Assembly: GCA_010672825.2 (NCBI GenBank)
Contig: JAAHFU020000001.1
Location: forward strand, 2,232,001-2,296,000
Length of the DNA: 64,000 nt
Source: Leptolyngbya sp. SIO1E4
Lineage (GTDB): Bacteria > Cyanobacteriota > Cyanobacteriia > Phormidesmidales > Phormidesmidaceae
Direction of reading: 5' to 3'
Under the pieces are notes generated by a model that was not told the origin of the DNA, did no database searches, and saw only the letters and a program-made list of their open reading frames with translations. The position numbers and the translations under genes were made by a program. This document shows, in pieces, positions 3,869-13,528 of this stretch (its first letter is position 1; each line of letters begins with the position of its first letter).

Positions 3869-4684
3869 ATGACTGTCGCAAGTAATTTTGTTAAGCCCCG
3901 CCTTAACTGGCCTACTACCATCTTTATGGTAGCTATTCACTCTTTAGTATTTCTTGCTTTCATCCCAGGCAATACCTCTTGGGGTGCGGTGGGTGTGGCA
4001 CTATTGCTGCACTGGATCACCGGGTGTTTAGGCATTACCCTGGGATGGCACCGTCTGATTGCCCACCGGAGTTTTCAGGTGCCTCGATGGCTAGAGTATT
4101 TTTTCGTCTTTTGCGGGACTTTAGCCTGTCAACATGGTCCGATTGAGTGGGTTGGCCTGCATCGCCACCATCATCGTTATTCTGATAAAAACAATGACCA
4201 CCACGATTCTGGCAAAGGTTTCTGGTGGAGTCATATGGGCTGGTTACTCCGTCAAGTCCCAGCTGAAGAAGATATTCCCCAATTTACTCGCGATATTAGT
4301 TCTGACCCTGTTTATCAGTTTTTTGAAAAATATTTCTTGGCACTGCAGCTTCCCCTGGCAGTAGCGCTCTATCTGTGGGGCGGGTGGCCCTTTGTGATTT
4401 GGGGAATTTTTGTGCGCTTGGTCGTGGTGTACCACTGCACCTGGCTAGTCAATAGCGCCACTCACAAATTTGGATATCGTAGCCATGAAACCGATGACGC
4501 CTCGACCAATTGCTGGTGGGTTGCTGTCGTGACCTATGGCGAAGGCTGGCACAATAATCATCATGCATTTCAATATTCTGCCCGTCACGGTCTGAAATGG
4601 TGGGAAATAGATCTGACATGGATGCATATCCGGTTGTTGAAGGCATTGGGTTTAGCGTCCAAAGTCAAACTGGTGGACAGCTAA
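3869..4684 (+). CDS. desC: Acyl-lipid delta-9 fatty acid desaturase
   Basis: This is a membrane di-iron desaturase of 271 residues. In cyanobacteria the DesC family puts the first double bond into stearoyl chains on membrane glycerolipids. The three histidine clusters that bind iron are all present: HRLIAH (61-66), HRHHH (98-102) and HNNHH (228-232). Hydrophobic segments near residues 15-55 and 150-195 fit the usual transmembrane pairs. The sequence PIEWVGLHRHHHRYSD is characteristic of the delta-9 class rather than of DesA or DesB. It is divergent from the PLP-protein gene, and a GC-rich hairpin follows the stop. Desaturase genes are often cold-regulated, but no specific regulatory site was recognised here. 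Confidence 0.93.
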   Translation: MTVASNFVKPRLNWPTTIFMVAIHSLVFLAFIPGNTSWGAVGVALLLHWITGCLGITLGWHRLIAHRSFQVPRWLEYFFVFCGTLACQHGPIEWVGLHRHHHRYSDKNNDHHDSGKGFWWSHMGWLLRQVPAEEDIPQFTRDISSDPVYQFFEKYFLALQLPLAVALYLWGGWPFVIWGIFVRLVVVYHCTWLVNSATHKFGYRSHETDDASTNCWWVAVVTYGEGWHNNHHAFQYSARHGLKWWEIDLTWMHIRLLKALGLASKVKLVDS

Positions 4685-11839: not shown

Positions 11840-12247
11840 GTGCGCTCTAGAAAAGCTCAAAAGATTGACCTCCAGGCAGAGTATCCCTGCCCTTGCCGCC
11901 GCAACGGGACACTATCTCCTATAGCGCTGACAGAGGCTTTTGGTTGTACTCGCTGTCAACAGATTTTTGTTATTCGCGAAGGTGGGTATTTGTTGGAGCA
12001 GATTTCAACTCACTACCCTTATAAGCGAGTCTGGTACTGGACAGGGCAGCAATGGCGCCTTGACCAGTCTGTTCTGAGTAATCACTACTTACCGCTAGCA
12101 ATTATGCTGGTTGGGGTAGCCATGTTTGTTTTGCTGCTGGTGATTGTGCAGCCGCCTGCCAACTTAGGTATGTTTTTGCGGCTCCTGTTTGTGGCGGCTC
12201 TTACCTTATTGTTATTGGGTGTCTTGTGGTTTTCCTGCCGTCGTTAA
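11840..12247 (+). CDS. Zinc-ribbon plus two-TM hypothetical protein
   Basis: This is a 135-residue membrane protein of unknown function that begins with a GTG codon. The N-terminal third contains two cysteine pairs (CPC near residues 17-19 and CTRC near 36-39) that could form a zinc ribbon. They are followed by a soluble segment, KRVWYWTGQQWRLDQ, and two hydrophobic segments at about 84-105 and 112-131, with a basic end (CRR). The sequence appears to be a conserved cyanobacterial type, but I cannot name it. It lies 30 bp upstream of the ProA-like gene and may be co-transcribed with it. Confidence 0.6.
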   Translation: MRSRKAQKIDLQAEYPCPCRRNGTLSPIALTEAFGCTRCQQIFVIREGGYLLEQISTHYPYKRVWYWTGQQWRLDQSVLSNHYLPLAIMLVGVAMFVLLLVIVQPPANLGMFLRLLFVAALTLLLLGVLWFSCRR

Positions 12248-12277: not shown

Positions 12278-13528
12278 ATGACCTCTGTTCAATCCTTAGC
12301 AGAATTAACTGGCTTAATTCAACAGGTGCGCCAAGCTGCGAGAGCGTTGGAAAAAGCCGAGCAGGTATCGGTGGCGCTGGCAGATGCCGCTAAAGCATTG
12401 AGAGCAGCTTCAGACAAGATCTTAGAAGCGAACACCCTCGATTTAGAGGCCAGCCTAGAGATGGCGGTGCCAGGGTTAGTGCTTGAGTGGCTAAAACTCA
12501 CGCCAGAACGCCTCAACACCGCGATTACCCTACTGGAGCGTCTTGCCAACCTGGACTCTGTGACCAGCTTTGCGTGCCGGTCTGATTTAGCCACCGCCCC
12601 CACATCGCATTCTTATGTTTTAGGTGAACCTTTAGGGGTTGTGGCCTTTGTCTATGAAGCTTTACCTGAGTTAGCTATTGTTGCTGCCGGGCTCTGTTTG
12701 CGGACGGGGAATGGACTCATCCTCAAAGGCGGGCACGAGGCGAGCCAAACCAATCAGGCGATCGCGACTGCATTTCAAACTGCCTTTGCTCAAACTGGGT
12801 TACCTGAGCACACGATCTTGATGATTTCTCCGAGCGAGGGGGAGGCGGCTCGCCGCTGGCTGATGCAGACGCCTGATTTGGATCTCGTGATCCCTTATGG
12901 GCGGGCGAGTTTAGTTCAGCAGGTCATGAGAGAGGCAAACTCACCCAGCTTGTCGACGGCGATCGGCAATTGTTATTTGTATTGGGCGCATACTGCCCCA
13001 GCTGAAGCCGTCGCCAAGATTGTGCTAGATAGCCAACAAGGTATTCCAGAGCCCATCAACGGGATTGAAAAAATTTTGGTGGATGCCAAAGTCTCTCCGA
13101 ACGCCCTCCATGAGCTACGCAGCCTTTTACAGGCAGGGGGCTTGACGCCTGAAGCTGCCAAGAGTTCTCCTCTCAATGCTCTGCATGCTTTAGAAGATGA
13201 TGAAATTTGGTGGCATGCTCAGTTAAATCACGCGGTGATTCTGGCCCAAGTACCAGACTTGCCGACCGCGATCGCGCTCATTAACGAATATAGCCATGGC
13301 CATGCAGACTGTATTGTGACCAACTCTTATCAGGAAAGCGTTCAATTTACTAATCAAGTTCGCAGTGCCTCGATTTACGTGAATGCCTCTCCTCGGTTTC
13401 AGCGCAATACCTCCCAGGCCAGGGCGATCGCGCTGGGCATGTCAGCTCAACGAGGGCTCCAAGGGGGGCGTATCGGCTTAGATACTCTCCTTACCCACAA
13501 AGCTGTGATTCAGGGCTTTGTCCCTTAA
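12278..13528 (+). CDS. ProA-like aldehyde dehydrogenase paralogue lacking the catalytic Cys
   Basis: The 416-residue chain follows gamma-glutamyl phosphate reductase (glutamate-5-semialdehyde dehydrogenase, proline synthesis) from end to end: GEPLGVVAFVYEALPELAI (117-135), LRTGNGLILKGG (141-152), VPxx-type segment at 204-214, and YVNASPRF near the C-terminus. In bona fide ProA the active-site cysteine sits in RPSxCNxxETLLV. Here the aligned segment is IPEPINGIEKILV, so the position is Ile260. The PRGGKGLI nucleotide loop has also become IPYGRASL. The enzyme is therefore probably unable to carry out the normal thiol chemistry. A regulatory or altered role, or relaxed selection, are alternatives. 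Automated annotation would probably call it proA. Confidence 0.85.
   Translation: MTSVQSLAELTGLIQQVRQAARALEKAEQVSVALADAAKALRAASDKILEANTLDLEASLEMAVPGLVLEWLKLTPERLNTAITLLERLANLDSVTSFACRSDLATAPTSHSYVLGEPLGVVAFVYEALPELAIVAAGLCLRTGNGLILKGGHEASQTNQAIATAFQTAFAQTGLPEHTILMISPSEGEAARRWLMQTPDLDLVIPYGRASLVQQVMREANSPSLSTAIGNCYLYWAHTAPAEAVAKIVLDSQQGIPEPINGIEKILVDAKVSPNALHELRSLLQAGGLTPEAAKSSPLNALHALEDDEIWWHAQLNHAVILAQVPDLPTAIALINEYSHGHADCIVTNSYQESVQFTNQVRSASIYVNASPRFQRNTSQARAIALGMSAQRGLQGGRIGLDTLLTHKAVIQGFVP

Follow-up and report, generated by a model that had tools for sequence, protein, structure and literature searches.

Gamma-glutamyl phosphate reductase (GPR, ProA; EC 1.2.1.41), described by the NCBI models TIGR00407 and NF001221 and by the solved structures 1o20, 4ghk and 8zok, is the known enzyme closest to the protein considered here. 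Within the wider aldehyde dehydrogenase (ALDH) superfamily, animals possess ALDH16A1, a pseudoenzyme that has no catalytic cysteine and is presumed to be non-catalytic. It resembles our protein in being a superfamily member without this residue, but it belongs to a different ALDH family and is found in another domain of life, and we know of no site or partner that the two would have in common. A literature search, in which subscription journals were thinly covered, yielded no description of a cyanobacterial ProA lacking the catalytic cysteine. A single ProA gene is tabulated for each of 27 cyanobacteria in one paper (PMC11061531), and Synechocystis 6803 is stated to hold two proA genes, sll0461 and sll0373, the transcripts of which both increase without nitrogen (PMC12386471).

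The window, i.e., the whole stretch of 64,000 nucleotides from Leptolyngbya sp. SIO1E4 that was analysed, contains at positions 12278–13528 of the plus strand a gene for a ProA homologue of 416 residues. In the following, its Cys-less type is termed ProA2, and ProA1 denotes the Cys-containing type that represents the usual cyanobacterial ProA. The frame is intact, in agreement with an earlier note made from these letters, and starts with ATG. Over its full extent the protein aligns with GPRs of known structure (1o20, residues 11–413, E 9.2e-44), and TIGR00407 and NF001221 match it along almost all of its length, so the homology along the entire protein claimed in that note is well founded. With 209.6 bits against a cut-off of 317.45 for TIGR00407 and 243.9 bits against 289 for NF001221, it stays below both NCBI equivalog thresholds for ProA. 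Its affiliation with the ALDH superfamily fold is indicated by PF00171 (47.5 bits, cut-off 23) and by an AlphaFold model for which Foldseek returned 1o20 as the top match (E 2.5e-25). The model is weak (pLDDT 68, below 50 for residues 363–416) and too poor around residue 260 and at the C-terminus for the pocket to be read from it. Seven of nine relatives picked for comparison exceed the NF001221 cut-off and none exceeds that of TIGR00407, so many ProA2 proteins are likely to be named glutamate-5-semialdehyde dehydrogenase; the predicted mis-annotation as proA would thus apply to relatives, but not on these scores to the window protein itself. The genome also encodes the second, Cys-containing ProA for which a search had been proposed: this ProA1 (C1:484577-485749, 544 bits) is found at a distance of about 1.76 Mb on the contig that also carries ProA2.

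Codon 260 of ProA2 (positions 13055–13057, plus strand) reads ATC, and the resulting Ile260 aligns with the catalytic cysteine (E. coli C253) that occurs in 62 of 62 catalytic ProA rows, as had been noticed from the sequence; Asn261, immediately following, is retained. The loop that had been described as a changed PRGGKGLI loop is indeed altered and reads IPYGRASL (codons 205–212), Y-G-R at codons 207–209 (12896–12904, plus strand) standing in place of the R-G-(S/G) of catalytic ProAs. A further replacement, at codon 376 (13403–13405, plus strand), puts Arg where the TRFxDG motif has Asp. The ProA position C260 corresponds to C598 of Drosophila P5CS, the catalytic residue of that enzyme (PMC11061531, PMC8963878), and its R712 and D715, described in the former paper as binding glutamyl phosphate, correspond to the Arg and Asp of TRFxDG when mapped by motif spacing rather than by alignment with that protein.

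The catalytic cysteine was found in none of 112 members of the ProA2 clade, two of which (L083 and L086) do not differ in their last 350 residues. In 94 of these proteins the position is held by Val (86), Ile (4), Ala (3) or Gln (1, with an unsure alignment), and the seven catalytic ProA rows aligned beside them all have Cys. Ten further members uniformly show Val, and eight more early-branching members lack a Cys in the aligned stretch examined, where their alignment is unsure; the ninth gene of that order, L121, is already contained in the count. Isoleucine at position 260 is therefore a minority state and the usual residue is valine, so that of the feature highlighted in the earlier note it is the absence of Cys that is common to the whole clade examined. 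Being shared in this way, the absence is ruled out as a product of chance or of a sequencing error.

Loss of the nucleophile is accompanied by a reconstruction of the site. For this comparison, 99 ProA2 rows (the set without L116–L118 of family f35 and without the f5 group) were set against 62 catalytic rows that represent 59 genes, three of them entered twice with different starts (L115/L162, L122/L196, L123/L192), and columns with at least 90% identity in the catalytic rows were regarded as conserved. ProA2 keeps 38 of these 87 columns, has switched 12 to another residue present in at least 80% of its rows and is looser in the remaining 37. Seven residues found in 100% of the catalytic rows are mostly switched: R71 to Trp, R207 to Tyr and H233 to Tyr (98/99 each), K253 to His (88/99, with Gln in the window), C260 to Val or Ile (99/99 switched), T372 to Pro (93/99) and D376, an Asp in 62/62 catalytic rows, to Arg (99/99). 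Glu314, likewise present in 62/62 catalytic rows, is Ala, Pro or Ser in 97/99 ProA2 rows, and Glu385 is gone. What ProA2 retains includes the Asn after the Cys position, Arg373 of the TRF element (at least 90% of rows), a G-x-C strand and other structural residues, so that of the substrate-site pair in TRFxDG the Arg has stayed and the Asp has been replaced. On the other side, R209 (99/99), N231, S252, K265 and L386 show complete or near-complete conservation in ProA2 but not in catalytic ProAs. Such loss followed by new conservation looks like the acquisition of a new function and not like decay, and we consider it almost certain that ProA2 does not work as a GPR by the known mechanism.

The nearest relative of ProA2 in our trees is the ProA of an order that we name the Gloeobacter order by inference (the order of G047). 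In all nine genomes of this order a single ProA scores above the cut-off, and it has the catalytic Cys and, unlike ProA2, the loop motifs of the enzyme; it shares with ProA2 an EANT-x-DLE-like stretch and, in 8/9 genomes, the same upstream gene, termed UP below. In a tree of 65 rows, ProA2 forms one side of a branch (100/98), as does ProA2 together with the Gloeobacter-type ProA (100/99). ProA1 (15 rows, one gene appearing twice; 100/98) is placed apart from ProA2 and groups with sequences from f43, a family from another class of the phylum, and from a haloarchaeon, with alphaproteobacteria beyond (82/93). A clade uniting ProA1 and ProA2 was rejected in the AU test (p-AU 0.0004; 0.0003 with the Gloeobacter order added), which disposes of an origin of ProA2 by duplication of ProA1 within the cyanobacteria. 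Another tree, computed quickly from 77 rows with more sequences from the Gloeobacter order and from f5 and without the long rows L116, L120 and L121, gave SH-aLRT values of 99 for ProA2 with f5 and of 97 for these with the Gloeobacter order. The early ProA2 lineages f5 and f35 have long branches and are much further diverged. The trees thus make ProA1 the outsider and ProA2 something other than a recent copy of the working ProA of the genome. Since ProA2 is sister to the Gloeobacter-order ProA with the same upstream neighbour and ProA1 sits on another branch, ProA2 is probably the original cyanobacterial ProA, now displaced.

The first tree also included L181, a very divergent ProA-like gene from a plasmid of Streptomyces sp. 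NBC_00704, which was left out of the second tree and of the residue comparison; it is located between genes for an SDR oxidoreductase and a phosphopantetheine-binding protein and is perhaps part of a biosynthetic cluster.

With respect to distribution, a profile built from 18 sequences and searched against one genome per species for 84,980 species returned 522 related stretches, the best 80 of which are all cyanobacterial by title. Of 291 genomes drawn from the phylum, 142 belong to the class of the window and 149 to other classes. ProA2 is present in 103 of the 142, with 99 strong matches and four weak ones (three from f35, one from f5) that were confirmed by the shared neighbour and by alignment. 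By score it is absent from the other 39 genomes of the class, namely 36 of f2, two of f16 and G088; f2 genomes measure 1.6–3.7 Mb, and the family is probably that of Prochlorococcus and Synechococcus. None of the 149 genomes from other classes gave a match with a ProA2-like score (best 4.2e-88). Both types commonly occur side by side in the order of G039, where a Cys-less copy linked to UP was found in 9/9 genomes and a normal ProA1 in 8/9 of them.

The upstream gene UP (positions 11840–12247, plus strand) starts with GTG, ends 30 bases before ProA2 and encodes an uncharacterised protein of 135 residues that resembles a membrane protein. It features a YPCPC...GCxRC motif (CPC...CxxC) and two long predicted helices (model pLDDT 78), and the CPC...CxxC part may bind metal. 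We obtained no Pfam match below E 0.01 for 32 members (best 0.011), no NCBIfam match below 0.1 for the window copy, no match among PDB sequences up to E 1 and nothing better than E 0.96 in a fold search. Of the 80 named loci, 79 have a UP homologue no more than 300 bases upstream of ProA2, and the remaining one is cut by a contig end. UP was detected in 75 of 194 genomes of the phylum and in none of the 13 f2 rows among the rows listed. The two genes are also lost independently of each other: ProA2 is present and UP unmatched in G046, G102, G126, G119 and G135, UP carries one or more stops next to an open ProA2 in G188, G222 and G123, and G050 has UP (L213 4982-5419) without ProA2. An obligate complex of the two proteins is not upheld by these uncoupled losses, so a fixed UP–ProA2 assembly cannot be general. 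The regions from G188 and G222 (L211 and L212; genomes of 2.8 and 3.0 Mb, possibly of endosymbionts) have few long open reading frames, and ProA2 is open there at 420 residues.

Many genomes carry a second, weaker UP homologue elsewhere. A ribH-like gene is present in the flank before UP–ProA2 in 40/80 named loci, and a psbZ-like ORF stands nearby in L077 (region 4034-4219). For the genes downstream of ProA2 in the window, a comparison with the 80 named loci gave no match at E 1e-6. A promoter scan found nothing (2.4 in shuffles) and three terminator-like sites compare with 2.8 in shuffles, so neither gives a signal.

Several explanations of a ProA without its cysteine have to be weighed, among them a decaying pseudogene. 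The lost catalytic residues, the long early branches, an internal stop in L036, which stems from a metagenome contig, and an early end in L117 are what decay would produce. The remaining 110 of 112 members are open, however, and the median dN/dS of ProA2 is 0.061 (range 0.015–0.142; Nei–Gojobori, the 140 of 3081 pairs with dS 0.1–1, from a set omitting L036 and L044, whose span entered the final stop); the corresponding median for UP is 0.084 (458 of 3160 pairs). Owing to their common ancestry these pairs are not independent, and the values describe close pairs of relatives, the nearest pairs of the window gene itself being saturated in dS. Purifying selection of this strength, as proposed for checking in the earlier note, agrees with its view that plain decay is not at work. 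Taken together with the occurrence in 103/142 genomes of the class and with the retention of ProA2 in small genomes where the neighbouring UP decays, it leads us to reject the pseudogene, which is extremely improbable; loss of catalytic residues combined with selection measured on relatives is instead what characterizes a pseudoenzyme. Hardly more probable is a GPR that still works with its nucleophile at another position. A conserved Cys elsewhere in the active site, the observation that the earlier note had named as speaking against its reading, was looked for, and the only residue that qualifies is C232, the single Cys invariant in 26 ProA2 members compared, which 90% or more of the 99 rows retain. 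C232 is equally a residue of catalytic ProAs (at least 90% of the 62 rows), is Thr in three early-diverging f35 members and is absent from the f5 group, which has a GYG/GQG motif, and with Arg in place of the substrate-site Asp in 99/99 rows the proposal was rejected.

Two further explanations take the new site or the retained fold as their starting point. ProA2 might be an enzyme with other chemistry that uses the ALDH fold without a covalent thioester and relies on Y207, R209, Y233, H253 and R376. Most of the new residues are near-invariant, as would be expected of a functioning site; at least 90% of rows retain G151 and E127, and many members still display a KGG-type loop. Glu314, which we take to be a cofactor-side residue of ALDHs, is replaced along with Arg207, Lys253 and Glu385, so productive NADPH binding appears unlikely; H253 reaches only 88/99 and is Gln in the window, and we know of no Cys-free dehydrogenase of this fold. 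We regard such an activity as unlikely. A purely structural role, in mixed oligomers with ProA1 or in the docking of ProB or UP, with the former site serving in packing, strikes us as similarly doubtful. In its favour, oligomers are formed by catalytic GPRs (the title of 8zok names a tetramer), and ProA2 has retained the fold and 38/87 conserved columns. Against it stand the near-invariant charged and aromatic exchanges at positions that are invariant in the enzyme, some of them at known ligand sites, and the genomes of f2, f16 and the Gloeobacter order that manage without ProA2.

A link to published phenotypes is offered by Synechocystis. Genome G119, which we take to be a Synechocystis from its Cph1-like neighbour, has a Cys-containing and a Cys-less ProA at separate loci; presumably, the ORF adjoining the former encodes UrtE and those near the latter encode ribosomal protein S4 and Cph1. 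The legend of a gene-order figure for strain 6803 lists proA with the genes drawn beside urea genes, and a table of that paper identifies urtE as sll0374 (PMC6737895). On these neighbourhoods sll0373 should be ProA1 and sll0461 ProA2, which suggests, from gene order and not from the sequence of sll0461, that sll0461, annotated as "proA", is the ProA2 of Synechocystis. When sll0461 is disrupted, PHB reportedly increases (PMC3859321, PMC3766872), and two papers treat this gene as encoding GPR (PMC12386471, PMC3766872). For a Synechocystis proA mutant, decreased proline reduction and more glutamate are given in a further study (PMC10788017).

The reading we prefer, with a probability of roughly 0.55, is that ProA2 is a displaced ancestral ProA kept as a ligand-binding regulatory pseudoenzyme of carbon and nitrogen metabolism. 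It builds on sequence comparisons, namely those for homology, Cys loss, newly conserved residues, ancestry, selection and linkage to UP. ProA2 would have been the ancestral cyanobacterial gamma-glutamyl phosphate reductase until, in the ancestor of all cyanobacteria other than Gloeobacter, proline synthesis passed to ProA1, acquired by transfer or present as an old paralogue. Thereafter ProA2 would have lost its Cys nucleophile, along with many residues invariant in catalytic ProAs, and would have persisted as a pseudoenzyme whose site is rebuilt and strongly conserved. With Arg373 kept and Asp changed to Arg376, this site may bind a ligand, which would probably be an acidic compound from the glutamate/2-oxoglutarate branch, and ProA2 may modulate carbon and nitrogen metabolism without catalysis, by way of a partner protein (ProA1, ProB or UP). 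The PHB effect of sll0461 and the open ProA2 of G188 and G222, where UP has stops, count in favour of this reading. Against it count the mutant result of PMC10788017, which can be read as lost GPR activity, the dependence of the sll0461 assignment on gene order, the inconstant retention of UP and the one internal stop and one short member among 112; the long f5 and f35 branches could reflect constraint on something other than the pocket. Tentatively, and with the odds rather against this more specific version, ProA2 might be a metabolite sensor that arose from a displaced biosynthetic enzyme and is present in most of the sampled cyanobacterial families; its rebuilt site would read an acidic glutamate-branch metabolite and set carbon/nitrogen partitioning via ProA1 or ProB and, where present, the CxxC membrane partner.

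Should ProA2 be a sensor, the published sll0461 phenotypes would be those of a sensor rather than of proline synthesis. If the preferred reading is right, a gene often liable to annotation as proA in cyanobacteria makes no proline, papers in which sll0461 figures as GPR (PMC12386471, PMC3766872) need rereading, and the PHB phenotype of sll0461 points to an unrecognised regulator. ProA2 would then clearly exemplify the displacement of an enzyme, with the catalytic ancestor still present in the corresponding gene pair of the Gloeobacter order.
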